64,000 nucleotides of DNA from Beroe forskalii (taxonomy: Eukaryota; Ctenophora; Nuda; Beroida; Beroidae), in assembly GCA_011033025.1 (NCBI GenBank), contig WFMF01000505.1, positions 8,198 through 72,197 of the forward strand, written 5' to 3'. Position 1 is the first letter of the stretch; every line of letters starts with the position of its first letter. Below are positions 3,255-64,000 of the stretch, one piece after another. Below the pieces are notes generated by a model. It saw only the letters and a program-made list of their open reading frames with translations. It was not told where the DNA came from and made no database searches. Both the position numbers and the translations under genes were made by a program.

Positions 3255-5264
3255 ACCCCTGAAGCAACCCAAACCCCTCCCTTTATCTAACCTCTGAGTG
3301 TCTGGGAGGACTCTGTGTCTCCTCCTTACCACCCCTCCCCTGAAGCAACCCAGACCCCTCCCTTCATCTAACCTCTGAGTGTCTGGGAGGACTCTGTGTC
3401 TCCTCCTTACCACCCCTCCCCTGAAGCAACCCAAACCCCTCCCTTCATCTAACCTCTGAGTGTCTGGGAGGACTTTGTGTCTCCTCCTTACCACATCTCC
3501 CCTGAAGCAACCCAAACCCCTCCCTTCATCTAACCTCTGAGTGTCTGGGAGGACTCTGTGTCTCCTCCTTACCACCCCTTCCCTGAAGCAACCCAAACCC
3601 CTCCCTTCATCTAACCTCTGAGTGTCTGGGAGGACTCTGTGTCTCCTCCTTACCACCCCTCCCCTGAAGCAACCCAAACCCCTCCCTTCATCTAACCTCT
3701 GAGTGTCTGGGAGGACTTTGTGTCTCCTCCTTACCACCCCTCCCCTGAAGCAACCTAAACCCCTCCCTTCATCTAACCTCTGAGTGTCTGGGAGGACTCT
3801 GTGTCTCCTCCTTACCACCCCTCCCTGAAGCAACCCAAACCCCTCCCTTCATCTAACCTCTGAGTGTCTGGGAGGACTCTGTGTCTCCTCCTTACCACCC
3901 CTCCCCTGAAGCAACCCAAACCCCTCCCTTCATCTAACCTCTGAGTGTCTGGGAGGACTCTGTGTCTCCTCCTTACCACCCCTCCCCTGAAGCAACCCAA
4001 ACCCCTCCCTTCATCTAACCTCTGAGTGTCTGGGAGGACTCTGTGTCTCCTCCTTACCACCCCTCCCCTGAAGCAACCCAAACCCCTCCTTCATCTAACC
4101 TCTGAGTGTCTGGGAGGACTCTGTGTCCTCCCTCACCACCCCTCCCTGAAGCAACCCAAACCCCTCCCGTCATCTAACCTCTGAGTGTCTGGGAGGACTC
4201 TGTGTCTCCTCCTCACCACCCCTCCCCTGAAGCAACCCAAACCCCTCCCTTCATCTAACCTCTGAGTGTCTGGGAGGACCCTGTGTCTCCTCCTCACCAC
4301 CCTCCCCTGAAGCAACCCAAACCCCTCCCTTTATCTAACATCTGAGTGTCTGGGAGGACCCTGTGTCTCCTCCTTACCACCCCTCCCCTGAAGCAACCCA
4401 AACCCCTCCCTTCATCTAACCTCTGAGTGTCTGGGAGGACTCTGTGTCTCCTCCTCACCACCCCTCCCCTGAAGCAACCCAAACCCCTCCCGTCATCTAA
4501 CCTCTGAGTGTCTGGGAGGACTCTGTGTCTCCTCCTCACCACCCCTCCCCTGAAGCAACCCAAACCCCTCCCTTCATCTAACCTCTGAGTGTCTGGGAGG
4601 ACCCTGTGTCTCCTCCTCACCACCCTCCCTGAAGCAACCCAAACCCCTCCCTTTATCTAACCTCTGAGTGTCTGGGAGGACCTGTGTCTCCTCCTCACCA
4701 CCCCTCCCTGAAGCAACCCAAACCCCTCCCTTCATCTAACCTCTGAGTGTCTGGGATGACTCTGTGTCTCCTCCTCACCACCCCTCCCCTGAAGCAACCC
4801 AAACCCCTCCCTCTATCTAACCTCTGAGTGTCTGGGAGGACCCTGTGTCTCCTCCTCACCACCCCTCCCCTGAAGCAACCCAAACCCCTCCCTTCATCTA
4901 ACCTCTGAGTGTCTGGGAGGACTCTGTGTCTCCTCCTCACCACCCCTCCCCTGAAGCAACCCAAACCCCTCCCTTTATCTAACCTCTGAGTGTCTGGGAT
5001 GACTCTGTGTCTCCTCCTCACCACCCCTCCCCTGAAGCAACCCAAACCCCTCCCTTCATCTAACCTCTGAGTGTCTGGGAGGACTCTGTGTCTCCTCCTT
5101 ACCACCCCTCCCCTGAAGCAACCCAAACCCCTCCCTTCATCTAACCTCTGAGTGTCTGGAAGGACTCTGTGTCTCCTCCTCACCACCCCTCCCCTGAAGC
5201 AACCCAAACCCCTCCCTTCATCTAACCTCTGAGTGTCTGGGAGGACTCTGTGTCTCCTCCTCAC
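3255..5264 (-). repeat. 81-bp minisatellite anchored at a splice donor (left arm)
   Basis: About 25 copies of an 81-bp unit; most units stay open on the minus strand because 81 is a multiple of 3 (repeated peptide VVRRRHRVLPDTQRLDEG...). The array begins at the base after exon 3. The authentic donor GTGAGGAGG recurs in each unit as GTGAGGAGG or GTAAGGAGG, so it is a tandem series of 5' splice-site copies. Single-base indels interrupt the frame at several units. I regard it as intronic, not as a coding repeat. Confidence 0.9.
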
Positions 5265-5415
5265 AACTGCAATGCCCTCCGGGTTGATGCGGACCTCCAC
5301 CTCCTTGTAGTAGTCGTCCTGATCGCTGCCCTGGGACGGGGAGAGCAGGCTGCAGTCGAACACGTCCTCGTCCCTCTTGTAGAACACCTCGTCTTTCAGC
5401 TCGCTCGAACTCAGT
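5265..5415 (-). CDS. Exon 3 of unrecognised gene, left copy
   Basis: This exon follows a CAG acceptor with a pyrimidine tract and ends at GTGAGG. It joins exon 2 in phase (AG + A), giving RR-LSSSELKDEVFYKRD. It encodes an acidic, conserved-looking segment (KDEVFYKRDEDVFDC..., ...GSDQDDYYKEVEVRINPE). No family is recognised. The left copy has no downstream exon: the duplicated arm stops near 2813, before the equivalent of the ORF at 32699-33288. If that ORF belongs to the gene, this copy is 3'-truncated. Confidence 0.7.
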
Positions 5416-5841
5416 CTGACAAGGAGAGAATGGGTTAGATAACCAATAATTTTCTCCGCGTTAAGCATAGACCAAAGTTGTGCAGATAGCCGAAACCTTA
5501 AATGTCGATTATCGATACAATTAATTTCCGTCAAAACTTCAATGTTTGCCTTTTTTGTCGTTTAATCGTTGCTATCATTCTGTCCTTATTGTGGTTTCAT
5601 TGTTCATTGTTGAGTTATTATGATTAGAAAGTTGTTACCGGTATAAACCGCTTAACAAGGGCCGCTAGAAAATGCAGAGTTGCAACCTAAAACCTTATTA
5701 TGCGAGAAGGAAATTCCCACGAAGCGGTTGAAGCCGCAATCTCAGATAGATAATTACTCCTAAAATGTCAAGGAAGTGGGTTGGAATAGGAGTTAAGCAG
5801 CTAAAATATCAAACTGCTGGGTAGGAGTTACCCAGTATCTA

Positions 5842-6247
5842 CAAGTACTCTCCAGTGCCAAATAGAAGGGGGTCGAAATAAACGTCTTTGGGTAGTGAAT
5901 TAGCAGAATCACTGCAAACGGTGGGGTCTCAAATAAACGGGTGGTGATGGGATGATGAGACTCTAGTCACAAAATTATCAAATTGGGAGAGGAAAAAAGC
6001 AATCTGTATGAAGCTGTGATCAAAATATTTGCTGTATTATTACCTTGGACACTTTATTTCATATAAGAATATTATTTTTTGGTCAATTCGCTGTTTAAAT
6101 CTGCTTTCAGAAAAATTTATTTTAAAAAATCCAAAAAAATGAGCTAACGAAGAGGTTGCTTAATAAGCGTCTTCAGCTGGGAAAAAAGTCAAAAATTTGC
6201 TAACGTCTCCCCCCCCCCCTTTTATTTGGCACTGGAGAGTACACTTG
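5842..6247. mobile_element. 406-bp TIR element, left arm only
   Basis: Ends CAAGTACTCTCCAGTGCC and the inverse of CAAGTGTACTCTCCAGTGCC. It sits in intron 2 of the left gene copy. The right arm (about 27440) lacks it and reads CTACACTAG at the site, so this is an insertion in the left arm or an excision from the right. It is non-coding and contains a long C-run. TA precedes the left end; the exact target duplication is ambiguous. Confidence 0.75.
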
Positions 6248-6285
6248 TCAGGGAAAACGATTCTCCATCTCAGCAGCTCACTAAC

Positions 6286-7870
6286 CTCCTCGAATCCAAG
6301 TTTCGCTTGTCTCTGATTTCCCCAATCTTCTGCGTGCACTGAGCGAGGGACTCTGAGTCCTCCAGCTCTTTCTTTATCTCCTTTAGTTTCCTCTGAAGGG
6401 AGGCTGAAGTCACATCGCCACTCTTAGGCGGACTGTATCTCTTCAGAAGTTCCTGCATTTCTCCGTTCTTAGTGCCGCCACAGGGCGCCACTTCTCTGTT
6501 GTTGCCACTTATTCTCTGCACTTCTTTATGGTCGTCAGTAAGTGGCATATCTGATCTCTGGTTTTCCAAAGATGTCACACCTCTCGTGTTGTCAGTAGGT
6601 GATAACGGGTGATTGCATTGACTACACTTTTTCCCTGGAATGTGAACTGCCCTCAGAGCTTTGGGCTTCACCAGGGTCTCCTTAACATGGCTGATGTCAG
6701 TGCTGAAGTTGATGCTATTTGGACGAGGTTTGGTGGAGGATGTGACAGGTATCTTGAAGATCTCTGCTTCCTGTTTGCAGGGGCGTGAGGAAGGTGCTGG
6801 GGGTTGCTTGGTGTCTGTATTTTGGCTGCAGGGAAGGGGAGGTGAAGGGGACATGGCAATGTCACTTGGAGACGGAGACATGACACCAGCAGTGTCACTT
6901 GGAGACGGGGACATGGCACCAGCAGTGTCGCTTGGAGACGGGGACATGACACCAGCAGTTTCATTTGATAGAGACATGTCCCGTGATAAAGACATGTCCC
7001 GTGATAAAGACATGTCACGTGATAAAGACATGTCACGTGATAAAGACATGTCACGTGACAGAGACATGTCACGTGACAGAGACATGTCGCGTGAGAGAGT
7101 ACTCCCCCTACTCTGAGACTCCTCCACCTGAAAGCTGCAGGCAGACTCCTCCAAGGAGCCCCGGGGTGCATACGGCAAGTGGATGGTGTTCTTAGGATGG
7201 ACTAGCGGACTCACCAGACCTCTCCCGCCTGAGCTAGAACCTGGAAGGTCGCCAGAATACTTCCTTCCTGAGGACACCGGGAATCCGGTCTCCATGACAA
7301 TGGGCACCGGAGGATCAGACACTTTCCTCATCACTTGGCTTAGTTCATCTCCCTGCTTCTCCTGCTTCTTCTTCCCTTTGAAGATGAAGGGAGAAAATGC
7401 TCGTTTTAGCGAATGTAACGAGGAGTTTCCGGACTTCTTAGTTTTATTGACCTGCGCCTCAGATTGAGTCCTGCGGATATCCTTGTGGTTGCCTGAGTGT
7501 CTCTTGCCTGAGTATCTGAGCTTGCCGAGTGAGCTGCCCTTGCTGGGAGCGTTGTCTGGGGTTGTGGTAGGTGGGGTAGTGTGGTCTGGCATGATGTCCC
7601 CTGCTGATCTGAGGGAGTAGTCGCTCCCCGTGGAGGGCTGCGAGTCAGCAGCTAGGTTCTGTAGGTGAAGGGTCCGCGTCAGACATCTGTCCGACTGGAA
7701 CTTGTCGCGATGATTCAGGTTGAGGAATACGTTGCCGGACAACAAACAAAAGGGAGAAGAGGCACTAGAGCTGTTATCAGAGGGACACTTGACACTCTGC
7801 GCTGAGAGGAATGTGCCGGCGAAGTGAGCGTCAACTCCCCCGCCCTTACGCGCCTTGCTCTGCAACATTC
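6286..7870 (-). CDS. Exon 2 of unrecognised gene, left copy
   Basis: A 1.6 kb exon; the first ATG is at 7868, two bases inside an exon that follows a TTTTCCAG acceptor. The donor is GTTAGTGA after codon ...RRNLDSRR. The product is Ser/Pro-rich and basic. A segment rich in Lys (SLKRAFSPFIFKGKKKQEK) is followed by seven copies of LSRDMS, then three MSPSPSDTAG-type repeats, a C-x-x-C motif (CSQCNHPL), and a likely coiled coil near the end (LQRKLKEIKKELEDSES). This suggests a cytoplasmic scaffold or signalling protein, but no family is recognised. The frame is open throughout. The MSPSPSD repeat has one more unit than the right-arm copy. Confidence 0.75.
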
Positions 7871-10800
7871 CTGGAAAAGAGACAAACGAGTCAGCAAATG
7901 ACTTACTTTGTGTTACGCTCTTAATGTAATCACAGCTTTAAAAACATATATATTATGCTGTATATTCCCCTATTACTCTATTAGAGCGACTTTATATTTA
8001 GGTTCCGTGTGAGTTTCACTCGTACGATAATATACGCGTGAAACCTTACACTCAGGCCATCACAGCACTTCTACGGTTAAAAACATACGTGTCAGAGATT
8101 AATTAGCGTATTTCATATCAAATTCCGCGGCAATTAACTCGAATGTACCAGTTCTACACTTGAAACGGCTCAGGTTGGTACTGGTATGACCGGGATAAAA
8201 AATGGTGCTAATTTCTCTAAATGGAATGAGAATAAAGAAAGAGCACATCATTACGCATAGGGGAGGATCTGAAGCTTGCGAAGCACTATTTCCATGCGGC
8301 ATACCTACTACATATTTGAGTGTAAACTGTAATCAACTTTTATTAACTTATTAATATCTGAGGGTCACGATAAAAATTTCAGTCGATTGTAGCGAATAAT
8401 CTTAATAAATCGTGAAGAATAGTCTAAGAATGGAGCTGGAGGGAAAGCCCTGCTATAAAGAAGGAAGGAGATTTGTGGGAAATAACAAAAAACATGAGTA
8501 GTGAGAGTGGCAGCAGTATACCGTGTTCCCATACATTCTAACAAGCATGGGAGGGGCTGAACGAATTAACAGCACACTATTCAAATAAAGAAATAAAGCA
8601 AATAGTGATACACAACAGCCAGACAACAGATCGGGTACAAGACGTCGTCCCTTGGGACACCTCTCCTACATACTACATAGGGGGACTGATCTCTCGCAGA
8701 TACGTATTCCCCTATTGTATAGCACACTTATTCGACGACCGACGTGTATCCCCGGCGTACAAAAGGCACCAAGGGAGCGCCAAAGGGGCATCGGGCGGGC
8801 ACCTGTGCCCTGAGCGAGACTCGCAAAACGGGACCATACTCACTACTCATGACAAATCGACAAAACTAGAGTAGAAAATTAGTGTGAACATGCGCGCACA
8901 TTGCGCTTGTTCACAGCAAATATGGCAATAATATGTTCTGATATTGATTTTTAGCAGTTGTGGCAAAAGAGATTATCTAAATATCTAGTCTTTCAAATTC
9001 ATAGGTAACCAAATCGTGGAGACCACACAAATAAAACATTCTTTTCTATCGACAGAAAAGCGGTAGACGTCTTTAGGCACCGACTCCTTGATCTGAGACG
9101 TCGTCTTTTTGACGATTTGGCTGACAGCTACCAGTCAAAAGAGGCGCACTACACTTGTATACTAGAGTACTGGGTATACATCATACTATTATAGTTTCCT
9201 GAGCACTATTATTGCTATTGCTGTCATGTTGTACATTGTAATGCAGGAGTTAAATGTGGCGTATGACGTGGCAATCAAAAGTACAATTTCAACAGACAAA
9301 GTCTGACCAGAGAACAGCGACAATTCAAAGCGATGCAACCAGAGCTTTTCATGAAACCAAACTTGGAGGGAGTAAAAGCTTAAAAGGTAGCCACAAATAA
9401 AGGAAGTGATGATAAGGTGTGGTGTTGAACGGAGAGCGCAATTGACACAACAGCTGCTCATTGGCAATTGTGAGAAATACAATTCATGTATTAAAAAGTT
9501 AAAACTCCATGAATGGCAACATCTTCGATTGATAATAACATTAAACATTGTTTATCTCAGTACACCCCACTCGAAACGGGTGAGGTGTTGTCGTAAGCAA
9601 TGGCGATAGGATGATTGGGTCTGAAGTTTTCTAGGATAAACTGGGTTTTCCTTGTTCACTTCGATTGACTGGGCTTGTGGCATGAATAGACCGAAGTCAT
9701 TTTCTTGAACGAAGTTATAATGGCCGAAACCGAAGTCGAGGCCGAAGGTGGAAAAATCATTAATAATTTATCAATCACCAAATCAATTAATTGATTATGG
9801 TTTTTACTTTTTTTTATAAAAATTATCTTATTATGTGGAAGTCACTGATTAGAATTTTAGGAACTGATTAGGAAATTTAATTCGTATGATCCACGGTAGC
9901 AAAATTTTAGGCCAAAAATCAATTTGTTTAATGACTAATTTGTGATTGATATCTTAAATAAACTACGGTCAAACTTCGGCAACTTTTGGTCCTGGTGTAC
10001 GGCATCTGTGACAGAACAGTTTACGCTTTGCCCCCTGCTGCGAGGGGCATCACTGCTGTTGTGATGTTTTTCAACAACTGAAGGTGACTAGCACCAGAGT
10101 TGTAGGCTAGCGTAGCGCTCGTCAGCTCAGACCCCTCTGTCAGGGATGGAAACAGAGCGGGACAGTTTCCAGGGCAGCTACGTGGAGCAAAGCAATTGCC
10201 CCTGCCCCCTCGAATAAGAGTAGTCCAGAGACAAGATTTCTTGAAAAACCAAATGCAACATCATATTATATAGAAAGTGAAACCGAGAAGCAGGCGTGAA
10301 CAATGAAAGAAATAGTTACCTTAGCAAAGAAAAATGCCTGTTCTCAATAGGGAATGTTAAAACTGAGTAGGTCACAGTTCATCGAATGTTCAATAAACGC
10401 ATGGTAGGCAAACTCTCTCATCACGAAGAACAGAAGTAGGTACAAAACCAGGACTATGTCTCACGGTCCAAGCAAGATAGCGAGATAAGCGGCAGATAAG
10501 CAATTACACAATTATTAGGCCTATTTTAATTACAAGGCAGTGCACAACAAAGGCCGCTAATGAGATAATTAATGAAGTAATTCCTAAAATATACGAGTCA
10601 TCTTGGGCATTTTACAATTCGCATTTATAAGTGCCTTTATACCCAACCAACTCATGGCAGGAAGATGGGTGATGAAGGAACATGGTCCATGAGGAATCCG
10701 TTGGTTTTATACTTCTATACTTTCTATGCAATCCGACAATGCACTTTTGTGTGGTCAACATATCATTACTGTGTAACAAGCGAAAGTGCCCTGTACAAAA

Positions 10801-11669
10801 CAGAGTGCCCTGTACAAAACAACGCGCAACTCCCAGGGAGCATTAAAACAAACTGACGGCAGAATGCTGCCGGAATGACAGAACATGACGTAAGAAATGC
10901 GTGGTTTGCAAGCATTGCAAGCAAGGTGCTACTCCGCACTGTGTAATGTGTATACCAGCTAATTACTTAATTAGGAGAACCCACAGTGCTCCTTGCATAG
11001 GAGTTCAGCTGGTAGCTCACTGCTGATTGCATGCCAACAGCCTGGTATCTTGGGAGGTTGTGGGGGCCTAGTACATACACTCGGTATAGGGGAATTACGG
11101 GGGATATGGCATACCTAACTTTAGAGATATTTTACGATCAGATTATGTTCATTTGAATCATATTTTTTTTAATTAAGGATTGTTTTGCGACATTTTAAAC
11201 ATGTTAAAGCCAGTGTGAACACAATTCTTTGCTTGGTAAGGCATAAAAGCATGTATACCATTTAACCTGTAAAAATACAATCTCATTTTGTTTTGGTGAA
11301 ATGGTACATTCAGATTTTGGGGAATTGGCATATGCCATTTGACCAAAATTTTGGTGTACCAAATAACCAAAAACTTATAATTATACTTTTAATGAGGAAA
11401 ATGTACTCTATCCACCATAGCACTACTATATTCTCTTATTATTGCACAATAATCGTGGGATTTGATGATATGCATATTATAATATATGTAATAAAGGAGT
11501 TGATCTATCACATTATTGGGCTATAGTCCAATAGTCGTTCATCTTCGAACTCCAGGATTGATTCAAGTCTCTTTGACTTTCCAACAGCCGTTTTGGGTTT
11601 TGGTAGCAAAAGAACAATGTTCTCTATAGCATGTTTACATAGGTCCTCCTCATCAGGATATGTGAACTT

Positions 11670-16556: not shown

Positions 16557-17470
16557 GTAATCTTTTTGTCGTATTGCTTTCTGAATAATACCTACCTATG
16601 TGTATTATTATTTATTTTCCATAGTTCCTGTGTATACCTCCGGTCTCTTCACTATTCAAATTCTGAAAGTACATCCAAACCCCGCAATGCTCTTTTCGAT
16701 GATGGAGGACGGGGGTCTCCTACATTTCTAAGTGGTGTCCATTTGATGCCACATCTCCTGGCTTTAATACCTGGTGGTCGACCGGGCGGCGGGCCCGCAA
16801 CAGACTATGTCCATCAAAAAAGATTTTTCGTGGGTACCATTGGACCCGCCACTATTAAGTCCATGATTATTTGGTGGACTTAATAACAGAGTCCATGGCG
16901 GATCTGACACTATGACAGCCCAAATATCCCCTGCATTCATACGTTCAGTATAACTATACCTGTAATATAAGAACTATGACAGTCATAAGGAGACTGTACG
17001 GTGTACACACCACTACACGGGCCATACACACCCTTTACTCTGTACAGTGTGTATCTTAATGTATACCGAGTGTATGTGCAAGGCCCCCATCACAACCTCC
17101 CAAGGGACCATGCTGTTGGCATGCAATCAGCAGTGAGCTACCAGCTGAACTCCTATGCAAGGAGCACTGTGGGTTCTCCTAATTAAGTAATTAGCTGGTA
17201 TACACATTACCCAGTGCGGAGTAGCACCTTGCTTGCAATGCTTGCAAACCACGCATTTCTTACGTCACATTCTGTCATTCCGGCAGCATTCTGCCGTCAG
17301 TTTGTTATTTAATGCTCCCTGGGAGTTGCGCTTTGTGCAGGGCACTCTGAATTTACTGCTACTTTCCTTAGTGAGTGGCAACTGCATTCTTTCGCTTGTT
17401 ACACAGTAATGATATTATGTTGACCACACAAAAGTGCATTGTCGGATTGCATAGAAAGTATAGAAGTATA

Positions 17471-18469
17471 TCTCCCTGCATAGGAAGCTGATTGCGACAC
17501 CATACACGTGACCCTTGAACGTGACAGGTCACGTGTCATGGTGACCATGAATCAGAGCTTTGTAATTATACCACGTGCCTCTGCTTCATATCACGTGTAA
17601 TTAGATTATCTTGAGAGTCATAGCAAGGAGGAGCGCATTTCCTATATTTTCCTGAATGAGGGAAATATCTGAAAATACTGCCCGCTTGGCATCGAGCCAG
17701 TTGAGTATGGAGTTTCTACTCACTTAACTGTACGAGTGTATCGAGAGAGCTATAATTATATCGCAAACCAAAGTTTACAAACTGCTTATTAGATACATTA
17801 ATCTAATTATACAATAATTTTAATGTGGTAAAATACATATTTAGAGTGCACACCAAATTTTAGAAATATTTCGGAAAGTGTAAAAAAGTGATATGAAGTG
17901 TAAAAAAGTGATATGATCCTGCGACTGCGTTATTACTTTATTAAACCTATAGAGTGCTGTAGGTATAAGTTTAATAATCTATGTTTATATGATGAAACTA
18001 AATTGTTTTTATGGCTGCATCCAATTTAACCGGTATATAACAGTACTACGAAAGTAAGGAGTTTGAAACAAATTGCAAGTCAAGCAAAAGTATCACTGAG
18101 CTTTCCTCTACCAACTGGTGCTAATATATACACCTGCTGTGAATAATAGGCGGCTAGATTCGACAGTTTGGCAGCATGTTACCATGTTAATGACGTCATT
18201 TCGCCGGATAAATTAAATATGAGCGGGTGTAAAGGCTAGTAGTTGATACTTGTACCAACCATGTGGCAACGTGACTTGGTCATATAGAGTGACACCTGAT
18301 ACCCCTGTGTTATGCGAAAGCCAATGTTACTGCGTATTTATGAGTCACGTTGCAGTGTAAGAGCCAATCAAACTTTAGATGCGATTTTCTCAAAAACCAC
18401 TTGGAATTGGTTCACATAATTTACAGGGTTCAAACCGTCAGATAATTTTTTATTAATTATGCAGGGAGA
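17471..18469. mobile_element. 999-bp TA-flanked TIR element, right arm only
   Basis: Starts TCTCCCTGCATA and ends with its exact reverse complement. TA lies on both sides (17469-17470 and 18470-18471), as for Tc1/mariner-type insertions. The left arm (about 10710) has the uninterrupted site. It is AT-rich and carries no long open frame, so it is non-autonomous. Confidence 0.85.
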
Positions 18470-18476
18470 TATGTAC

Positions 18477-18528
18477 GATATTCCACTGTAAACTCGGGCC
18501 TAACGGCCCTCGTTTACAGTGGAATATC
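18477..18528. repeat. 52-bp near-perfect palindrome
   Basis: GATATTCCACTGTAAAC is mirrored by GTTTACAGTGGAATATC around GGGCC...GGCCC. It is absent from the left arm and lies directly after the 999-bp element, so it may be a second tiny fold-back or part of the same insertion. Confidence 0.8.
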
Positions 18529-20984: not shown

Positions 20985-21370
20985 GCCGATCAGCGCTGAT
21001 CAGCGCCGACCCACCGCCGATCAGCGCCGATCGGCGCTGATCAGCGCTGATCGGCGCTGATCGGCGCTGATCAGCGATTGATCAACGCTGATCAGCGACG
21101 ATCAGCGCTGATCGGCGCTGATCAGCGCCGATGGAAAAAATTTAAAATTTCATCGGCGGTCGTCGGCGCTGATCGCTGATCAGCGCCGATCAGCGCTGAT
21201 CGGCGCCGATCGGCGATCAATCAGCGCTGATCGGCGAAATTGGCCGCCGATCAGCGCTGATCAGCGCTTTGATCAGCGCCTACCAAAACACCTGCATAGG
21301 AGCTTTAGAAAACTCCATCGGCGCTGATCAGCGCTGATCAGCGCCGATCAGCGCTGATCAGCGCCGATCA
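20985..21370. repeat. GGCGCTGATCAGCGCC palindromic array, left
   Basis: Degenerate repeats of CGGCGCTGATCAGCGCCGAT-like palindromes (TGATCA and GGCGCC cores). Mirrored by 24210-24600. Confidence 0.88.
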
Positions 21371-23065: not shown

Positions 23066-23069
23066 CGCC

Positions 23070-23450: not shown

Positions 23451-23464
23451 CTTAGGACTGCCTT

Positions 23465-28010: not shown

Positions 28011-29665
28011 GTGAGGAGGAGACACAGAGTCCTCCCAGACACTCAGAGGTTAGATGAAGGGAGGGGTTTGGGTTGCTTCAGGGGAGGGGGGAGGGACACA
28101 GATTCCTCCCAGACACTCAGAGGTTAGATGAAGGAGGGGTTTGGGTTGCTTCAGGGGAGGGGTGGTAAGGAGGAGACACAGAGTCCTCCCAGACACTCAG
28201 AGGTTAGATGAAGGGAGGGGTTTGGGTTGCTTCAGGGGAGGGGTGGTAAGGAGGAGACACAGAGTCCTCCCAGACACTCAGAGGTTAGATGAAGGGAGGG
28301 GTTTGGGTTGCTTCAGGGGTTGGGGAGGAACACAGAGTCCTCCCAGACACTCAGAGGTTAGATGAAGGGAGGGGTTTGGGTTGCTTCAGGGGAGGGGTGA
28401 GGAGGAGACACAGAGTTCTCCCAGACACTCAGAGGTTAGATGAAGGGAGGGGTTTGGGTTGCTTCAGGGGAGGGGTGGTGAGGAGGAAACACAGAGTCCT
28501 CCCAGACACTCAGAGGTTAGATGAAGGAGGGGTTTGGGTTGCTTCAGGGGAGGGGTGGTAAGGAGGAGACACAGAGTCCTCCCAGACACTCAGAGGTTAG
28601 ATGAAGGAGGGGTTTGGGTTGCTTCAGGGGAGGGGAGGGGAGGAGACACAGAGTCCTCCCAGACACTCAGAGGTTAGATAAAGGGAGGGGTTTGGGTTAC
28701 TTCAGGGGGGGTGGTGAGGAGAAGAGACAGAGTCCTCCCAGACACTCAGAGGTTAGATGAAGGAGGGGTTTGGGTTGCTTCAGGGGAGGGGTGGTGAGGA
28801 GGAAACACAGAGTCCTCCCAGACACTCAGAGGTTAGATGAAGGGAGGGGTTTGGGTTGCTTCAGGGGAGGGGAGGGGAGGAGACACAGAGTCCTCCCAGA
28901 CACTCAGAGATTAGATGAAGGGAGGGGTTTGGGTTGCTTCAGGGGAGGGGTGGTAAGGAGGAGACACAGAGTCCTCCCAGACACTCAGAGGTTAGATGAA
29001 GGAGGGGTTTGGGTTGCTTCAGGGAGGGGTGGTAAGGAGGAGACACAGAGTCCTCCCAGACACTCAGAGGTTAGATGAAGGAGGGGTTTGGGTTGCTTCA
29101 GGGGAGGGGTGGTAAGGAGGAGACACAGAGTCCTCCCAGACACTCAGAGGTTAGATGAAGGAGGGGTTTGGGTTGCTTCAGGGGAGGGGAGGGGAGGAGA
29201 CACAGAGTCCTCCCAGACACTCAGAGGTTAGATAAAGGGAGGGGTTTGGGTTACTTCAGGGGGGGGTGGTGAGGAGAAGAGACAGAGTCCTCCCAGACAC
29301 TCAGAGGTTAGATGAAGGGAGGGGTTTGGGTTGCTTCAGGGGAGGGGTGGTGAGGAGGAAACACAGAGTCCTCCCAGACACTCAGAGGTTAGATGAAGGG
29401 AGGGGTTTGGGTTGCTTCAGGGGAGGGGAGGGGAGGAGACACAGAGTCCTCCCAGACACTCAGAGATTAGATGAAGGGAGGGGTTTGGGTTGCTTCAGGG
29501 GAGGGATGGTGAGGAGGAGACACAGAGTCCTCCCAGACACTCAGAGGTTAGATGAAGGAGGGGTTTGGGTTGCTTCAGGGGAGGGGAGGAGGAGACACAG
29601 AGTCCTCCCAGACACTCAGAGGTTAGATGAAGGAGTGGTTTGGGTTGCTTCGGGGGAGGGTTGCT
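28011..29665 (+). repeat. 81-bp minisatellite anchored at a splice donor (right arm)
   Basis: About 20 copies, against about 25 in the left arm. Most units carry GTRAGGAGG and a TTGCTTCAG acceptor-like word. Copy length varies by 1-10 bases, so the open frame breaks more often here than in the left arm. Internal higher-order duplication is visible (about 28620-28960 resembles 29170-29510). Confidence 0.9.
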
Positions 29666-46396: not shown

Positions 46397-47074
46397 ACTG
46401 GGCGCAAATGAGCGCAATTGAGCGCTAATGAGCGCAATTGAGCGCTAATGAGCGCAATTAAGCGCTAATGAGCGCAATTGAGCGCAATTAAGCGCTAATG
46501 AGCGCAATTGAGCGCTAATGAGCGCACTTAAGCGCAACTGAGCGCAAATGAGTATAAGAAAGTTTTATTTTTTGTAAAATAGCTACAACTGAGCGCAGCT
46601 GAGCGGAATTGAGCGCAACTGAGCGCAAAATTGAAATTATTTGCGCTCAGCACAACTGAGCGCAAAATTGAAAATTTGCGCTCAGTTGTTCTGAGCGCAT
46701 ATGAGCGCAAATGAGCGCAAAATAATTTGCGCTCAGTAAAACTGAGCGCAAAATGCAAAAATTTGCGCTCGTTAGCGCTCGTTAGCGCTCATTTTCAAAT
46801 TCTGTTAATTTTGCGCTCGTTAGCGCTCTGAGCGCAAAATGGGCGCAAAGTGGGCGCAAAATGGGCGCTAACGAGCGTTAATGAGCACATATGAGCGATG
46901 ACGAGCATATATGAGCGCAAAATTTTGCGCTCATTTGCGCTCAGTTATTTTCGAGGCTCTAGAGCGCTAATGGGCGCTAACGAGCGGTAATGAGCGCTAA
47001 CGAGCGCAAAATTTTGCGCTCGTTAGCGCTCGTTAGCAATCATATGTGCTCAATTGTGCTCATTTGCGCTCAGT
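46397..47074. mobile_element. 678-bp TA-flanked fold-back made of a 10-bp word array
   Basis: Starts ACTGGGCGCAAATGAGC and ends with the inverse of ACTGAGCGCAAATGAGC; TA lies on both sides (46395-46396 and 47075-47076). The left half is an almost strict 10-bp repeat (GAGCGCAATT / GAGCGCTAAT). Towards the right the word turns to its complement (TTGCGCTCA), so the whole can fold. It abuts the 5' edge of the retroelement, which is truncated there. Confidence 0.8.
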
Positions 47075-47076
47075 TA

Positions 47077-49782: not shown

Positions 49783-49784
49783 TA

Positions 49785-52611: not shown

Positions 52612-55600
52612 CTGAAGAAGGGATCTGTTATGATTTACTCGACTATTTGAATTGTGCAGTATTGGGTCGAATCTACAATGTTTTTTGTATGTAGGGGGAC
52701 GGTCAACATACCTTTTCGGTTTTTTTCAAAAAATTACTGAAATATCTGAAAAACCAAATTGATTATTGATATACTGACTTTGATAAGACGGTAATTTCAG
52801 AAGGTTTACAAGGTCAACTCACAATATCCTCTGAGACGTCATCTATCTTTTGAGCGGTTGGTGTTTTGATTGGTCCTGTGCTCTGAGCCCTGGCGCTCCT
52901 CCAGTTGGCAGTGTCTGCTGGCCGGGCACCTCCGAACGGGTTAGCCTGTGGCAATGTTGGGAGAGTTGGAAACAAAGAAAAAAAAAAGTAACGAATCAAA
53001 ACCTCGATATAAATCCGATACATCCTCTCCCGCAATTTTGCAAAAGTATGTTAATGAACTGTGTCATAGACCATGGACACATCATTGGCCCCTTAGTACT
53101 ACCGATCCCTCACCTTAGGTTTTGGCTGTTTGTCAGGTTGTTTGTACTACCGATCCCTCACCTTAGGTTTTGGCTGTTTGTCAGGTTGTTTGTACTACTG
53201 ATCGCTCACCTTAGGTTTTGGTTGTTTGTAGGTTGTTAGTACTACTGATCGCTCACCTTAGGTTTGGGTTGTTTGTCAGGTTGTTTGTACGACTGATCCC
53301 TCACCTTAGGTTTTGGTTGTTTGTACTACAGATCCCTCACCTTAGGTTTTGGTTGTTTGTCAGGCTGAGGTGGTCCAGGCTGGGGAGCCCCGGCTCCCTC
53401 CGGCCGCTCCCTTATATCCACAGGTTTAGCTGCCCCGAACGGGTTGGGTTTGTTGGTGTTCTGAGACGCCTCCTGCTCTCCAGAGCCCATCGTTCTCGGC
53501 TTGATGTTGAGCCTCGGCCGTTCCCTGGGCTCCTCCCCCAGATCACCGTGCCTCACCCAAGCGTTGTCATCACGAGGCTCCTCACGAGGTCTCCAAGGGT
53601 TTCGGTCACCACCTCGGTCTCTACCTCGGTCCCCTCTTTCTCCTCGGTCATCATGACCATCCCGGAACCTGGATTACGTGAGAATTGGTATTGATCAGGA
53701 AGCAGGGAGGGAGCTTCCTGGCTTACTGGAGTTGGATGCACGTGCGTTCAGTGCAATTGATAACACCGAAATTATCAAACAAGACAAATCAGTGTGAAGT
53801 CATTAATAAGTAAACACACGAAAACCAGCTTATCTCCCATATGAGCAAGGCAATCCTCCATTTTCACGATTCATATGGAAGGCATACCAGAAAACCGCTC
53901 CAATAAACCCACAAAGTGTGAGAGGTGATATGAGCGATAATCAGAATCGTGTAATTCTTTACTCACGATCTGGGAGACTCCTTGGCAGGCTCGTTCATCT
54001 TCGTACCGAAGTCATCTCGGGAGAAGTTGTCCGTGTCACCGCCCCCTCGACCACCATAGGGCCGTGGGCTCCGCTCTTTGTCTTCGTACTTCCGGGGTCC
54101 TCGTCTGGGAATGGAGTGAGGGTATTAGGAAAGTAATAACAGAGGTTTGACTTGCATGAAGCATGAAGAGTCCTGGTAGGTGCACGATTACTTTTTAATC
54201 TCTGGGTAGTGCAAAGCCTCAGCTATCTATGTGTCCCTTTCAGTGATTCAGTCACAAATAGGAATAACCATTTGAACTGCTATGAGGATCAATTTGCACC
54301 AATAATGGCACACACAGAACATAAAACTAGGCTTTCCATTATCGGTAACAAATTTTTTATCTAGATAAACCGATAATTATTTCGGTTTTATCTAGATAAA
54401 ATTTATCTAGATAAAATCTATCATTTTAAAAACATTTTGCCACTGTCCATCTGGTTACTTTCGCTCAATATACGTCAGTCTGATATCATGGTGATTGTTG
54501 AAAAACCCGACAGGCGTTAGTGAAAAATGAGACTGTTGTTAGTGATAACACTACGTCTGGAAATTGTCAATTATACGTAATAGTGGTACCAAAGGCACTT
54601 CCGATTGGTTTCAGAAATCATTCAGGTTGATATCATTGATTTGTCAGTGTTAGACTGATGCCATAAATCCGTCACAACAGTATTAGGAATACTCAGCAGA
54701 CTACGTCAGACTGGTGTCAGTGAAACGGCAGACTGGTGTCAGTTGATAGGGCAGACTGGTGTCAGTGATACGGCAGACTGGTGTCAGTGATAAGTCAGAC
54801 TGGTGTCAGTCATACGGCAGACTGGTGCCAGTGATACGGCAGACTGGTGTCAGTGATAAGTCATACTGGTGTCAGTGATATGGGTGACTGATGTCAGTGA
54901 TAAGTCAGTTTGGTGTCAGTGATACGGCAGACAGGTGACCGTGATACGGCGTATTGGTGTCAGAGATACGGCAGACTGGTGTCAGTGATACGACAGACTG
55001 GTGTCAGTGATAAGTCATACTGGTGTCAGTGATCTGGCAGACTGATGTCAGTGATGAGTCAGACTGGTGTCAGTGATACGGCAGACAGGTGTCAGTGATA
55101 AGTCAGTTTGGTGTCAGTGATACGGCAGACAGGTGTCCGTGATACGGCATATTGGTGTCAGTGATACGGCAGACTGGTGTCAGTGATACGGCAGACTGGT
55201 GTCAGTGATACGGCAGGCGGGTGTCAGTGATACGGCAGACTGGTGTCAGTGATAAGTCATACTGGTCAGTTATATGGCAGACTGGTGTCCGTGATACGGC
55301 AGACTGGTGTCAGTGATAAGTCAGACTGGTCTCAGTGATAAGTCAGACTGGTGTCAATGATAAGTCAGACTGGTCTCAGTGACACGGCAGACTGGTGTCA
55401 GTGATACGACAGACTGGTGTCAGTGATAAGTTGTACTGGTGTCAGTGATACGGCAGACTGGTGTCAGTGATACGGCAGACTGGTGTCAGTGATAAGTTAT
55501 ACTGGTGTCAATGATAAGTCAGACTGGTCTCAGTGACACGGCAGACAGGCGTCAGTGATACGACAGACTGGTGTCAGTGATAAGTCATACTGGTGTCAGT

Positions 55601-58600
55601 GATAAGTCATACTGGTGTCAGTGATCTGGCAGACTGATGTCAGTGATGAGTCAGACTGGTGTCAGTGATACGGCAGACAGGTGTCAGTGATAAGTCAGTT
55701 TGGTGTCAGTGATACGGCAGACAGGTGTCCGTGATACGGCATATTGGTGTCAGTGATACGGCAGACTGGTGTCAGTGATACGGCAGACTGGTGTCAGTGA
55801 TACGGCAGACGGGTGTCAGTGATACGGCAGACTGGTGTCAGTGATAAGTCATACTGGTCAGTTATATGGCAGACTGGTGTCCGTGATACGGCAGACTGGT
55901 GTCAGTGATAAGTCAGACTGGTCTCAGTGATAAGTCAGACTGGTGTCAATGATAAGTCAGACTGGTCTCAGTGACACGGCAGACAGGTGTCAGTGATACG
56001 ACAGACTGGTGTCAGTGATAAGTCATACTGGTGTCAGTGATCTGGCAGACTGATGTCAGTGATGAGTCAGACTGGTGTCAGTGATACGGCAGACAGGTGT
56101 CAGTGATACGGCAGATTAGTGTCAGTGATACGGCAGACTGGTGCCATTGATACGGCAGACTGGTGTGAGTGATATTTGATACTGGTGTCAGTGATATGGT
56201 TGACTGATGTCAGTGATAAGTCAGTTTGGTGTCAGTGATACGGCAGACAGGTGACCGTGATACGGCGTATTGGTGTCAGTGATACGGCAGACTGGTGTCA
56301 GTGATACGGCAGACTGGTGTCAGTGATACGGCAGACGGGTGTCAGTGATACGGCAGACTGGTGTCAGTGATACAGCAGACTGGTTTCAGTCATCTAGCAG
56401 ATTGTTAGTGTCGGTAATAAGTCTGGCCAGTTTCAATGATAAATATCTGACTTGTGTCTGTGAATAGTGTCACTGGTGCCAGATTTGTGTCGGTATCAGT
56501 TATCCATTAAACAAGTGTCAGTGATACATCAGGATAGTTTCAACTATACATAAAATAGGTGTCTGTGGTATGTCGGACTGGTGTTGGTGTTTGGTCAGAA
56601 AGGTACCAGTGACATGCTAGACTGGTGGCAGTGATCATTCAGACTGGTGAAAGTTGAAACCAGTCCGAAAGTTAGTGTTTTTTTAATGAAATTTTTCAAT
56701 TTTACAAGCATTTTTTAACGCAAGCTTTTTTGCTATTTTATCTAGATAAAAATAATTTTTATCTAGATAAACCGATAATTTATTTTGACGAATTATCGGA
56801 GATAATTATCGGTTTCGATTATCGGACTGGAAAGCCTATATAAAACACACAGAATCTAAATTGACTTGAAAAGATCGCATCAGACACGTCCTATTGACTG
56901 GCGAAGAACACCCAATATATCGTGATATAAACTAATAGGTTCTGACTTCTACTCGTTGGTAAGGAACGGGTTCTCCGTCGTCCTGAGGTCGGACATCCCT
57001 CCGCCAGTCATCACTAGTCGTGTCCACGTAGGGTTTCCTCTCACCATCCTCGTTACTCCTTCCTCTTTCCCACTTCTCAGCACTGTCTGGAGAACAAGAG
57101 AGGGTTAGTTAACTTTAACAGGCAAAATGCTGCTATAAATTACTAGAATCTTGATACTCACATTAGTGACTAGTGACGACGTAGATATATCAATATGAAT
57201 CCTGTTTTATGATACGTCGGAATGAAATGTTCCTCATACCTGCTTCTCCTCTATCTCTATTGTCTTTTCCTGTAGCCACATCAACCTTAATAGGCCTGTT
57301 TCGGACAACTTTCTCATTCGATTTCAAGGCTCCAATCAGACCTTCTGCGGTATGGAACTCAACGTACCCAAAACCTTTGAAGTGGCCAGTATCCTTCTCT
57401 TTCAGCAGTCTTACTTCTTTCACCTGAGAGTAACGATATTCTTGAAAATGCAAGAGCCAGACATTGATCGTAAAATGTTATTTGATTCGGATTAAACGAA
57501 AGAATTTATTTATCCATCGTTTGTGGAACCCTTCGAACGCCGGGACTTGCGTCAGCGTGTCAGATATCGTCCGAAACGGAGGGTTAGTTTCACTCTTATC
57601 TCTTTTGAGGGGGTAGCCCTACGCCCTAGTTAATCTACCCCACAGTAGTACCTATTTTCAGTAGTACATATTTACCATAACTCGGCAGTTTTATTCGTTG
57701 ACGCAATCAGAAATAACGCGCATTCGTGACACCATGTAAATCAATGAAAGACGCGCAAATGCGCGTTTTAGAAATGCGAGAGATAATTTGTTGTATCATC
57801 GAAATGTCGTCGCGGGTAACGCAAACGTAAATAATGCACGGCTCAAAATGGCCCATTTGTGCCAGAGGCCTTTATTCCTGGCCGCTACGGCTCCCCTTCC
57901 ATTCACAAGACATGCAAAACATCCATAATGAACACGGCACACCTCGTCCATTATCCAACTCACAAAGTCTCGAATCCCCATCGATCATGTAAGTTGTGGT
58001 ACACGGTCAATACTTCGCCGTATATAACCACTAATTTATCGTTGAAATGTTCATTTTCTAAGGTTTCGACATGAATTATTTACATTCTCATAACTGCTTA
58101 ACTTCATCACTGATGTAACCGAATCATTTGACACTCACCGTGGCCTTGACAAACAAGTTGATGACATCGTCGTCGTTGAAGTCGAAGGGTAGGTTCCCTA
58201 CGAAGGCAGTGAAGGGCGGACTCCGGGGCACTTTGCTGGGGTCGAAGGAGCCCTCCCTTTGGGCACGGGGGGCACTGGGCAGCGCGCTGACATCAAACGA
58301 GGCAGGGGCATTCACTACCACGGGATCTGAGGATGACGGTTGGTTAGTGCTGTAGTCGGCGTGTCTATCTTCAATAAGCACAAAAACATGCCCAATTTTA
58401 ATAAGATGATAGGTTAGGGAAAAGTTTTAAGCTTTACCTGGTTTACTGAGGTCAGTGGAGGACCACATACCTGGTTTACTGAGGTCAGTGGAGGACTCTG
58501 CGGACCATGTTGGAGCTGCTACTGGTGTCACAGGAGCGTCATCACCCAGGAACTGTGACAGGTGTAAGACTTGTCCCTTCTTGGCCCCTCCTTTACGTTT

Positions 58601-58606: not shown

Positions 58607-59310
58607 TCAGAATGAAGCGCTAATTGCAGCGGGTTAGTTAGTGGGGAGGGACGAGGGTAATCATTATATAGTCATTAGAGGGTAGTTGTTATATAATAGT
58701 TAGTGAAGGGAAATGGAAATACAGATACTATATGAATTATAATCAACAAAAAAATTTGATCCAATCTACTCAAAAGCGCAAAAGCTTAACAGATCGATGA
58801 TGAATGAGGCACATTGTGCAGTGGATAAATTGTTAAAGAATAAAATAAATAATTACATTATCCGTCACTATCACAGTTTAATGATAACTCAACGCACATT
58901 AAGTTATGTTGTCAATGCAAATTAAAAGATGTTTTTATCCACAATTGTTTGAATCTTGATCCTTCATCGAAGTATTACATTGGAAAGCTAACACAACGAT
59001 CGAATATTTGGGCCCGTTTTCTGATTTCGTCTGCTTCGCATATAATCCACATTTCATCATCACACATTTCATTATCTATTAGCCATCATACTTATATTAC
59101 ATTGAACTCTTGTCACATGTTAGTTTATCAGGAAGTATTTATGGCAATGGCATAGCTCACATTTCAAGCTTTCCAAAGACACACTTCACGGAGCCCCTGC
59201 TTCAACTCAATTCGACTAGCTCTGGAAGCGGTTTCGTGGTAATCTCAGTTCCGGCATGATTTGGCTTGATTCGACCAGCTCCTGTTTGTAGTATCAACGA
59301 TAAGATCTCA
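58607..59310. other. Intergenic gap upstream of eIF4B
   Basis: AT-rich; presumably contains the eIF4B promoter and 5' UTR together with the 3' UTR of the next minus-strand gene. No distinctive promoter element is recognised. Confidence 0.5.
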
Positions 59311-59430
59311 GTTCCACCTCTGAAAGCCCATATTGCTCTGGTTTATCTCAGTTCCACCTCTGGAAGCCCACATTGCTCTGGTTTATCTCAGTTCCACCTC
59401 TGGAAGCCCACATTGCTCTGGTATATGGAG
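59311..59430 (-). repeat. 40-bp triplication of a coding end and stop codon
   Basis: Three copies of a 40-bp unit (59311, 59351, 59391) that on the minus strand reads CAGAGCAATGTGGGCTTCCA, GAGGTGGAACTGA and GATAAAC. The first translated copy (59391-59430) plus its TGA ends the protein, so the other two are 3' UTR. Confidence 0.9.
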
Positions 59431-60275: not shown

Positions 60276-60490
60276 CTTAATCTTCCTCTTCCTCTTCTCC
60301 TTCTTGATAGGTTCCTGTTTGCTCTTCTCCATGGTGGCTCGCTTGGTAGGTTTCCGCTTCATGTTGTGATCCTCTGTCATGACTTGGGGGTAGAGTTTCC
60401 TGACCGTAGCGTCTATCTTCCTCTTCCTGTTCCGGGCTAGTTCCTGTTCCTCGTACTCCTGCAGCTCCTCCCTCGTCGGGGGGCAGTACC
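60276..60490 (-). CDS. Upstream exon of unrecognised gene
   Basis: Follows CCCCCCTAG; reads YCPPTREELQEYEEQELARN, then RKRKIDATVRKLYPQVM and a strongly basic end (KKEKRKRKIK). Donor GTTCAC, phase 0. Earlier exons must lie beyond the 3.5 kb array, outside the window. No family is recognised; a basic stretch of this kind could bind lipid or nucleic acid. Confidence 0.72.
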
Positions 60491-63400
60491 CTAGGGGGGG
60501 GGGGTAGTGTCAGTAGTCAGTACCCTGGGGGAGTAGTGTCAGTACCCTGGGGAGTAGTGTCAGTACCCTGGGAGTAGTAGTGTCAGTACCCTGGGGGGGC
60601 AGTACCCTAGTGGGGAGTAGTGTCAGTACCTGGGGAGTAGTGTCAGTACCCTGGGGGGAGTAGTGTCACCTGGGGAGTAGTGTCAGTACCTAGTGGGGGC
60701 AGTACCCCTAGTGGGGAGTAGTGTCAGTACCCTGGGGGAGTGTCAGTACCCTGGGGGAGTAGTGTCAGTACCCTGGGGAGTAGTGTCAGTACCCTGGGGG
60801 AGTAGTGTCAGTACCCTGGGGGAGTAGTGTCAGTACCCTGGGGGTGTAGTGTCAGTACCCTGGGGGGCAGTACCCTAGTGGGGAGTAGTGTCAGTACCCT
60901 AGTGGGGAGTAGTGTCAGTACCCTGGGGGAGTAGTGTCAGTACTCTGGGGAGTAGTGTCAGTACCCTGGGGAGTAGTGTCAGTACCCTGGGGAGTAGTGT
61001 CAGTACCCTGGGGGAGTAGTGTCAGTACCCTGGGGAGTAGTGTCAGTACCCTGGGGGGGGGCAGTACCCTGGGGGAGTAGTGTCAGTACCTTGGGGGAGT
61101 AGTGTCAGTACCTTGGGGGAGTAGTGTCAGTACCTTGGGGGAGTAGTGTCAGTACCCTGGGGGAGTAGTGTCAGTACCCTGGGGAGTAGTGTCAGTACCT
61201 TGGGGAAGTATTGTCAGTACCCTGGGGGAGTAGTGTCAGTACCTGGGGAGTAGTGTCGGTACCCTGGGGGGCAGTACCCTAGTGGGGAGTAGTGTCAGTA
61301 CCCTAGTGGGGGAGTAGTGTCAGTACCTGGGGGAGTAGTGTCAGTGCCCTGGGGGAGTGTCAGTACCTGGGGGGGGCAGTACCCTGGGGGAGTAGTGTCA
61401 GTACCCTGGGGGGGCAGTACCCTAGTGGGGAGTAGTGTCAGTACCCTGGGGGAGTAGTGTCAGTACCCTGGGGGAGTAGTGTCAGTACCCTGTAGGGGGG
61501 GGCAGTACCCTGGGGAGTAGTGTCAGTACCCTGGGGAGTAGTGTCAGTACCTTGGGGGAGTAGTGTCAGTACCCTGGGGGAGTAGTGTCAGTACCCTGGG
61601 GGAGTAGTGTCAGTACCCTGGGGAGTAGTGTCAGTACCCTGGGGGAGTAGTGTCAGTACCCTGGGGAGTAGTGTCAGTACCCTGGGGAGTAGTGTCAGTA
61701 CCCTGGGGGGGCAGTACCCTAGTGGGGAGTAGTGTCAGTACCCTAGTGGGGAGTAGTGTCAGTACCCTGGGGGAGTAGTGTCAGTACTCTGGGGAGTAGT
61801 GTCAGTACCCTGGGGGAGTAGTGTCAGTACCCTGGGGAGTAGTGTCAGTACCCTGGGGAGTAGTGTCAGTACCCCTAGTGGGGAGTAGTGTCAGTACCCT
61901 GGGGGAGCAGTGTCAGTACCCTGATGGGGAGTAGTGTCAGTACCCTGGGAGGTGTCAGTACCTGGGGGGTAGTGTCAGGGGGGGGAGTAGTGTCAGCACC
62001 TAGTGGGGAGTAGTGTCAGTACCCTAGTGGGAGTAGTGTCAGTACCCTAGTGGGGGAGTAGTGTCAGTACCCTGGGGAGTAGTGTCAGTACCCTGGGGGT
62101 AAGTACCCTGGGGAGTAGTGTCAGTACCCTGGGGGAGTAGTGTCAGTACCCTGGGGAGAGAGTGTCGGGGCACCTGGGGGAGTAGTGTCAGTACCCTGGG
62201 GGAGTAGTGTCAGTACCCTGGGGAGTAGTGTCAGTACCCTGGGGGTGTAGTGTCAGTACCCTGGGGGCAGTGTCAGTACCCCTGGGAGTAGTGTCAGTAC
62301 CCTGGGGAGTAGTGTCAGTACCCTGGGGGAGTAGTGTCAGTACCTTGGGGAGTAGTGTCAGTACCTTGGGGGAGTAGTGTCAGTACCTTGGGGAGTAGTG
62401 TCAGTACCTTGGGGAGTAGTGTCAGTACCTGGGGAGTAGTGTCAGTACCCTGGGGGAGTAGTGTGTCAGTACCTTGGGGAAGTATTGTCAGTACCCTGGG
62501 GGAGTAGTGTCAGTACCCTGGGGGAGTAGTGTCAGTACCCTGGGGAGTAGTGTCAGTACCCTGGGGGAGTAGTGTCAGTACCTGGGGGGGGCAGTACCCT
62601 GGGGGAGTAGTGTCAGTACCCTGGGGAGTAGTGTCAGTACCCTGGGGGAGTAGTGTCAGTACCCTGGGGGAATAGTGTCAGTACCCTGGGGAGTAGTGTC
62701 AGTACCTTGGGGATGGTGTCAGTACCTGGGGGTAGTGTCACTACCCTGGGGGAGTAGTGTCAGTACCTTGGGGGAGTAGTGTCAGTACCTTGGGGAGTAG
62801 TGTCAGTACCTTGGGGGAGTAGTGTCTTGGGGGAGAAAGTGTCAGTACCCTGGGGAGTAGTGTCAGTACCCTGGGGGAGTAGTGTCAGTACCCTGGGGAG
62901 TAGTGTCAGTACCCTGGGGAGTAGTGTCAGTACCCTGGGGGAGTAGTGTCAGTACCCTGGGGGAGTAGTGTCAGTACCTTGGGGGAGTAGTGTCAGTACC
63001 TTGGGGGAGTAGTGTCAGTACCTTGGGGGAGTAGTGTCAGTACCTTGGGGGAGTAGTGTCAGTACCCTGGGGGGCAGTACCCTAGTGGGGAGTAGTGTCA
63101 GTACCCTGGGGGAGTAGTGTCAGTACCCTGGGGGAGTAGTGTCAGTACCCTGGGGGAGTAGTGTCAGTACCCTGGGGGTGTAGTGTCAGTACCCTGGGGG
63201 GCAGTGTCAGTACCCTGGGGGAGTAGTGTCAGTACCCTGGGGGAGTAGTGTCAGTACCCTGGGGGAGTAGTGTCAGTACCCTGGGGGAGTAGTGTCAGTA
63301 CCCTAGTGGGGAGTAGTGTCAGTACCCTAGTGGGGAGTAGTGTCAGTACCCTAGTGGAGAGTAGTGTCAGTGCCCTGGGGGAGTAGTGTCAGTACCCTGG

Positions 63401-64000
63401 GGGGGGGCAGTGTCAGTACCCTGGGGAGTAGTGTCAGTACCCTGGGGGAGTAGTGTCAGTACCCTGGGGAGTAGTGTCAGTACCCTGGGGAGTAGTGTCA
63501 GTACCCTAGTGGGGAGTAGTGTCAGTACCCTGGGGGAGTAGTGTCAGTACCCTAGTGGGGAGTAGTGTCAGTACCCTAGTGGGGAGTAGTGTCAGTACCC
63601 TGGGGGAGCAGTGTCAGTACCCTAGTGGGGAGTAGTGTCAGTACCCTGGGGGGGCAGTGTCAGTACCCTGGGGGGCAGTACCCTGGGGGGCAGTACCCTG
63701 GGGGCATTACCCTGGGGGAGCAGTGTCAGTACCCTGAGGGAATAGTGTCAGTACCCTGGGGGGCAGTACCCTAGTGGGGAGTAGTGTCAGTACCCTGGGG
63801 GAGTAGTGTCAGTACCCTGGGGAGTAGTGTCAGTACCCTGGGGAGTAGTGTCAGTACCCTGGGGGGGGGCAGTACCCTAGTGGGGAGTAGTGTCAGTACC
63901 CTGGGGGAGAAAATAAAGTACCCTGGGGAGTAGTGTCAGTACCCTGGGGGAGTAGTGTCAGTACCCTGGGGGAGTAGTGTCAGTACCCTGGGGAGTAGTG
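60491..64000 (-). repeat. 20-21 bp array anchored at a splice acceptor, runs off the window
   Basis: About 170 copies of AGTAGTGTCAGTACCCTGGG with G-run and TAGTGGGG variants. On the minus strand each unit reads CCCCCAG or CCCCTAG followed by GGTACTG, the same as the authentic acceptor and first exon bases at 60490. Thus the array is a long series of 3' splice-site copies. In the exon's frame each unit also contains TGA. It lies wholly within the upstream intron. Confidence 0.92.

Follow-up and report, generated by a model that had tools for sequence, protein, structure and literature searches.

Tandem repeats lying across the borders between exons and introns have been described in several systems. 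First of all, the available parts of PMC3087553 and PMC3902484 describe the so-called mirages of amphioxus, which are minisatellite-like tandem duplications of exon–intron boundaries, found at donors as well as acceptors, with units of 10-160 bp; the source cited there for the term is a 2002 Adh paper. The genes named as carrying them are Adh3, the globins BflGb6 and BflGb9, troponin C and PGBD5, and the AG/GT signals are contained in many copies, with splicing reportedly undisturbed (PMC3087553, PMC3902484). Internal tandem repeats at exon–intron boundaries are also reported for human duplicated genes in the portion of PMC2812944 at hand. In addition, tandem arrays of dual-specific AG|GT sites occur in the polyubiquitin gene UBC, and the accessible text of PMC10809524 gives 77 human introns of the same type. 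Finally, intron gain, either by tandem genomic duplication or by staggered-break repair, is treated in the extracts of PMC3443670 and PMC2891723.

The arrays analysed here come from Beroe forskalii, whose genome assembly comprises 216 Mb in 1134 contigs, and were first noticed in a window, that is, the whole stretch of 64,000 bases under analysis. The original prediction was that tandem arrays in at least six places begin exactly at exon borders, copy splice sites or a stop codon, and are a strong candidate for an undescribed phenomenon. This last point gives way to the literature, as the amphioxus mirages, so far as the available parts of PMC3087553 and PMC3902484 describe them, have the same structure. 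That is to say, the genome is rich in minisatellites, and the arrays belong to an already known kind.

In the window, 125 rows were listed by Tandem Repeats Finder (TRF), and their summed coverage is 14,191 of 64,000 bases (22%); in 28 other loci, the summed TRF coverage is 35,872 of 280,000 bases (12.8%). With 22% of the window and ~13% of the 28 loci under arrays, some contact between arrays and exon borders is expected. The sample of the genome amounts to ~300 kb, consisting of 30 loci of 10 kb (L with a number) picked by family searches aimed at multi-exon myosin, chaperonin and kinase genes; L021 and L028, which extend the window and L020, respectively, are the exceptions to this choice. 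The spliced genes of the sampled loci include homologues of muscle-type myosin and of CCT. Many full-length protein-kinase domains were met by the kinase family search in single open frames, which suggests intronless kinase genes or retrocopies. In L006, the similar adjacent exons 3625-3850 and 3922-4104 both match Myosin_head at ~104-173 and are possibly mutually exclusive.

All exon borders are predictions of a simple hidden Markov gene finder built for this analysis, and a gene-finder score >6 defines a good exon. It matched 40 of the 41 Pfam-matched exons compared, which were taken, out of 123 Pfam rows, from six loci that had also served for training. Its output on 363 kb of merged sequence contains 262 good exons, and the predicted splice borders number 514, including 448 outside the window's contig. 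Masking of the arrays led to false borders inside coding arrays (7083 and 26626 of the window), and down-weighting was used instead. Of the 168 predicted introns, the window's contig contributes 16, a few of which join different genes, so the set includes some false introns. In the donor matrix trained on the sampled loci, ~5% of the donors are GC, and position +3 is T in 23%. The positions of the features are collected in Table 1.

Table 1. Arrays, predicted exons, checked borders and direct-repeat introns (bare numbers are window positions; positions with L belong to the sampled loci).
Feature	Position	Strand	Basis or remark
81-bp array, 25 copies, arm 1	3249..5264	-	overlaps or abuts 3' end of predicted coding exon
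'Exon 3', arm 1	5227..5415	-	gene finder
In-frame 33-bp and 18-bp arrays within coding exon (LSRDMS repeats)	6856..7094	-	TRF
81-bp array, ~21 copies, arm 2	28011..29661	+	counterpart of arm-1 array
48-bp array with six AAG|GTGAG donors	53096..53360	-	sequence inspection, site scoring
eIF4B-like exon, 3' end is first array copy	53341..53668	-	gene finder
22-bp array, 77 copies, deep in eIF4B intron	54702..56390	.	TRF
eIF4B exon-1 end and donor, two copies, 33-bp spacing	58438..58495	-	sequence inspection
40-bp unit, three copies, TGA in each	59305..59426	-	first TGA is stop of open frame
Predicted exon with acceptor adjoining 22-bp array	60276..60490	-	gene finder
22-bp array by acceptor	60511..64000	-	continues ~460 bp past window into L021
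Homology-checked border	L001:7573		striated myosin
Homology-checked border	L005:5084		myosin
Homology-checked border	L023:5914		CCT gamma
Homology-checked border	L012:5209		myosin VI
Homology-checked border	L017:4501		myosin
Direct-repeat intron	L025:7766-7953		
Direct-repeat intron	L025:6097-6307		
Direct-repeat intron	L005_6:2929-3943		
Direct-repeat intron	L030:9532-9711		
Direct-repeat intron	L018_19:16351-17635		

The gene that we take to be eIF4B encodes a predicted protein with an RRM domain outside the array-bearing exon. The identical donors of its 48-bp array follow the exon-end bases 53341, 53305, 53257, 53210, 53162 and 53114, with spacings of 36, 48, 47, 48 and 48, and the donor score is 6.9 at all six sites; the exon-proximal copy is taken as the putative real donor, and the next exon starts at 52945, ~150 bp beyond the array. 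These six sites bear out both the 48-bp donor array predicted at 53340 and the more general claim that the units hold exon-edge bases together with the functional signal. The 33-bp duplication claimed for the exon 1 donor is likewise present, with matching exon ends at 58471 and 58438 and donor scores of 6.6 and 5.2. The 22-bp array at 54702-56390 is a counter-example, as it lies far from good exon edges.

The arrays at 5264 and 28011, both with an 81-bp unit, represent a single array present in each arm of an inverted duplication and are therefore counted once; the arrays of the six claimed places are all real, but the independent places are five. Blocks within 3226-8398 and 25310-29686 form this inverted duplication with 93-95% identity, the exon parts of the two arms differ in 3 of 151 bases, and the difference in array copy number (25 against ~21) refers to one inverted duplication only. 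The exon next to the arm-1 array was given by the gene finder in two variants, either as 5227-5415 or extended into the array as 4741-5415, and its end was reset to 5227 for the tests. The candidate donor at 5264 (GTT|GTGAGG) has a score of 2.9, against 5.6 for a stronger candidate (CAGAG|GTTAGA) that lies within the first unit at 5226, at a distance of 38 bp, so that the position of this array "exactly at the border" is uncertain. With this ambiguity at 5264 and with arrays that overlap the exon instead, a start exactly at exon borders is not what the sequences have. Downstream of 'exon 3' in arm 1, no good exon (score >6) is predicted. The large inverted duplication (3226-11088 and 17062-29686) is broken into blocks of 89-96% identity and is accompanied by degenerate CCCTAA/CCCAAA telomere-like repeats at 23189-23441. 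Exon interiors can hold arrays too, as seen at 6856-7094, where the LSRDMS repeats are encoded by the 18-bp array adjoining the 33-bp coding array, the copy number of the latter being 3.4 at this place and 2.3 in the opposite arm.

The supposed 40-bp triplication at a stop is real as far as the three TGA copies are concerned (59388-59390, 59348-59350 and 59308-59310), but no splice site is involved, and the unit length of 40 is not divisible by 3. Similarly, an array does adjoin the acceptor at 60490, but the unit is 22 bp and not 20 bp, and its TRF start is 60516, with 25 intronic bases separating the array from the exon; AG|GGTACTG is common to the unit and to the exon start at 60490. Elsewhere in the window, the open frame 46981-48585 contains a reverse transcriptase domain (RVT_1, E 2.3e-9), and 10-bp arrays lie upstream of this frame at 46402-47072.

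In independent, conserved genes elsewhere in the genome, arrays likewise hold copied donors and acceptors whose scores equal or resemble one another. There are eight acceptors scoring 5.5-7.8 at L005:5084, four acceptors scoring 7.5-7.6 at L023:5914, three donors all scoring 4.0 at L018:9447, and 28 donor-like sites at L027:8498, where 13 of the 14 listed score 7.1. As in the mirages, the unit extends across the exon–intron boundary and the AG/GT signals recur in the copies, where they are intact in 82-100% of the copies (in those 14 of the 16 arrays for which copies were found). At five places (Table 1), an ungapped protein alignment to solved homologues crosses the exon-proximal border and confirms it as the real one. 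In the L005 unit, the 11 exonic bases are codons of the conserved myosin FNSF, which indicates that the exon came first and was then copied into the intron. The arrays spanning a border outside the window's contig number 14 after the correction given below, a set that keeps the borders of L020 and L027, which have had no homology check; five of the 14 are carried by the L018_19 gene, a divergent myosin with weak matches only. For L013, a homology search at an over-strict threshold gave no match.

The frequency of such arrays was compared with a placement null, in which each merged array was collapsed to one unit and placed randomly outside exon interiors. The correction consists of two border changes judged by homology to myosin sequence: the border L002_3:3264 is presumably wrong when set against myosin, and, as the motif aimed at was not located, its exon end was placed at 3301, whereby the array leaves the spanning class; the L007_8 border was shifted by 25 bp by a similar judgement. 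In all loci, with the stop-codon repeat included in the uncorrected counts, the number of border-spanning arrays is 20 (9.6 expected; p=0.0023), and at score >=100 it is 17 (6.4 expected; p=0.0004); the corrected values are 18 against 9.6 (p=0.0096) and 15 against 6.3 (p=0.0023). A test with the best TRF row only (18 against 11.5, p=0.046) was dropped, as several arrays were missed, and the merged arrays were used instead.

A possible meaning of this excess is that tandem amplification is actively seeded by exon edges, as the original prediction had proposed as one alternative. Strand breaks or their repair where exon passes into intron would be an example of such a cause, and arrays at borders would then be in roughly two-fold excess. 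It is in favour of seeding that, outside the window's contig and before correction, 15 of 137 arrays are spanning against 8.0 expected (p=0.018), 22 against 12.4 are spanning or within 15 bp (p=0.0087), and 12 of 54 against 5.4 are spanning at score >=100 (p=0.0093). An 'intronic only' null gave a stronger value outside the window's contig (15 against 5.2, p=0.0003), but it is biased, since the filter puts border-spanning positions at a disadvantage among the random placements, and it was rejected. After correction, the three comparisons become 14 against 8.1 (p=0.036), 21 against 12.4 (p=0.017) and 11 against 5.4 (p=0.022); when the divergent myosin-like gene L018_19 is also removed, they fall to 9 against 7.4 (p=0.32), 16 against 11.5 (p=0.12) and 7 against 4.8 (p=0.21). 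If L018_19 is left out but the window is retained, the spanning arrays of score >=100 number 11 against 5.8 (p=0.035). Thus, in the loci independent of the finding, the significance of the excess depends on one gene; the claim that border arrays go beyond chance is weakly supported by 14 against 8.1 and loses significance with 9 against 7.4. The border frequency outside the window's contig is 1.2 to 1.7 times random, and a modest true excess at borders is possible. Moreover, donors and acceptors are struck about equally (10 and 9 of 19 splice cases among the spanning arrays, the mis-called L002 acceptor included), which speaks against seeding, and the exonic share of the unit has a mean of 0.50 over 20 spanning arrays against 0.49 in the null.

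Seeding was also set against the duplication of the junctions themselves, using 30-mers centred on borders, with a local copy defined as >=25 of 30 matches within 2 kb. Locally duplicated were 13 of 242 donors and 13 of 245 acceptors; in the adjacent intron, the numbers are 15-18 of 239-241 at +10 to +75 from donors and 10-20 of 243-245 at -10 to -50 from acceptors, and in exon interiors ~1% of the 30-mers. In random intron at least 40 bp from borders, 243 of 1498 are duplicated at a 26-of-30 threshold, a high rate that reflects the greater weight of large arrays. Among the 26 border hits, several are not independent: two are false coding-array borders, one is the stop codon, one array is represented by both of its arms, one place is counted twice through overlapping loci, and one pair of similar neighbouring exons is included. 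Junction duplication shows a step at the border and no peak relative to the nearby intron, and, with the loss of significance when one locus is removed, seeding is regarded as unlikely.

The original prediction also allowed that arrays of decoy splice sites are kept to tune splicing, and selection for spare sites would be a related case. Copy scores that are the same as or close to that of the real site (eIF4B, L018:9447, L023:5914, L005:5084) agree with this idea. On the other side, conservation of the copied GT/AG does not exceed that of the remaining dinucleotides in the unit, the mean mid-rank being 0.54 (0.5 expected) in nine arrays; these nine, out of 16, are those with >=5 decoy copies and a stable unit in the centred control, and three of them (L013:4454, L017:168, L017:9457) have borders without a homology check, are classed as 'exonic' and are uncounted in the placement test. 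In the 60490 array, 95% of the unit positions are conserved at least as much as its AG, and among the 14 spanning arrays outside the window's contig, with the L002 case left out, the unit length is a multiple of 3 in three. In 163 intronic arrays away from borders, a donor-like site occurs 7 times in sense and 7 times in antisense, without strand bias, and an acceptor-like site 2 times in sense and 1 in antisense. Kept decoys are therefore considered highly improbable, and neither seeding nor kept decoys is shown by these data. Donor-like motifs are somewhat more frequent in intronic arrays than in non-array intron on both strands (8 against 4.2, p=0.06; 10 against 5.3, p=0.04). A lower number of changes at copied GT/AG than in the rest of a fixed window (44 of 742 against 926 of 9646, p=0.0006) vanished with windows centred alike, and this uncontrolled count was rejected because central columns suffer fewer indels.

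It may also be asked whether the arrays made the borders, being left over from introns that arose when an AG|GT segment was duplicated in tandem (the Rogers model). Of the 168 predicted introns, 5 carry a direct repeat of >=9 nt that is in register across their two splice sites, against 0.10 expected, none of 200 permutations reached five such introns, and in the clearest case, the CCT gene intron L025:7766-7953, the repeat is exact over 15 nt. These five introns are possibly recent intron gains. However, four of them have no homology to the flanking exons wider than the repeat, and the fifth matches its own array only, so they would fit staggered-break repair rather than large tandem duplication. 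None of the five is in the window's contig, and two hold an array near a border. In the array-bearing introns themselves (eIF4B 53341, 58438/58471, L005:5084, L001:7574 and L023:5914), donor and acceptor share 0-3 bases in register; the Rogers model places donor and acceptor in copies of one segment, and the eIF4B introns have 3 bases in register. An origin of the borders from the arrays is thus held to be quite improbable.

The best explanation is considered to be chance placement of frequent minisatellites, in combination with short introns and with tolerance at exon edges, to which a probability of roughly 0.7 is assigned. Under this explanation, very many short tandem duplications would arise in the genome, with starting segments lying nearly anywhere outside exon interiors, and where such a segment by chance includes an exon edge, an array with copies of the splice site would result. 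Such border arrays would be tolerated, as the copy adjacent to the exon still completes it, and the remaining copies would be intronic and drift neutrally. Only the exon-proximal copy would be spliced, by exon definition, and the duplications would be neutral. A broader alternative, in which exon edges are duplication hot spots about two-fold over random, with sites continually copied and new introns sometimes following (5 of 168), seems doubtful. Of the 448 predicted borders outside the window's contig, 14 (~3%) are located within tandem arrays. Provided that splicing relies on the exon-proximal copy alone, which the homology suggests, the spliceosome would manage with anything from several to dozens of similar copies next to the real site, and such arrays would then be a useful natural test of exon definition.

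Compared with the known systems, the arrays resemble the intron-gain cases in the direct repeats with AG|GT at exon edges and differ from what is described in the extracts of PMC3443670 and PMC2891723 in that only 5 of 168 introns are concerned, none of them in the window's contig. Like the UBC arrays, each unit here contains a splice site, and 9 of 12 listed donors are AG|GT. In UBC, according to the accessible text of PMC10809524, one site acts as donor and acceptor within the repeats, whereas the far border of the eIF4B intron is outside the array: the next exon, at 52945, has no shared sequence, and the AG|GT donor has an acceptor score of 3.0. The repeats of human duplicated genes are likewise minisatellites at exon–intron boundaries, and some of them form new introns or alternative transcripts with RNA support in the portion of PMC2812944 at hand, whereas the arrays here are known from DNA alone. 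The closest likeness is to the amphioxus mirages, since the minisatellites here duplicate exon–intron boundaries at donors and acceptors and carry AG/GT in the copies. Unlike the mirages in the available parts of their sources, they are hosted by a 216-Mb genome, some arrays have >=25 copies, they are read solely from genomic sequence, and they have been compared with random placement. The mirage pattern, so far that of a handful of lancelet genes in those parts, is in this way extended to the present genome, and a random-placement test is added to it.
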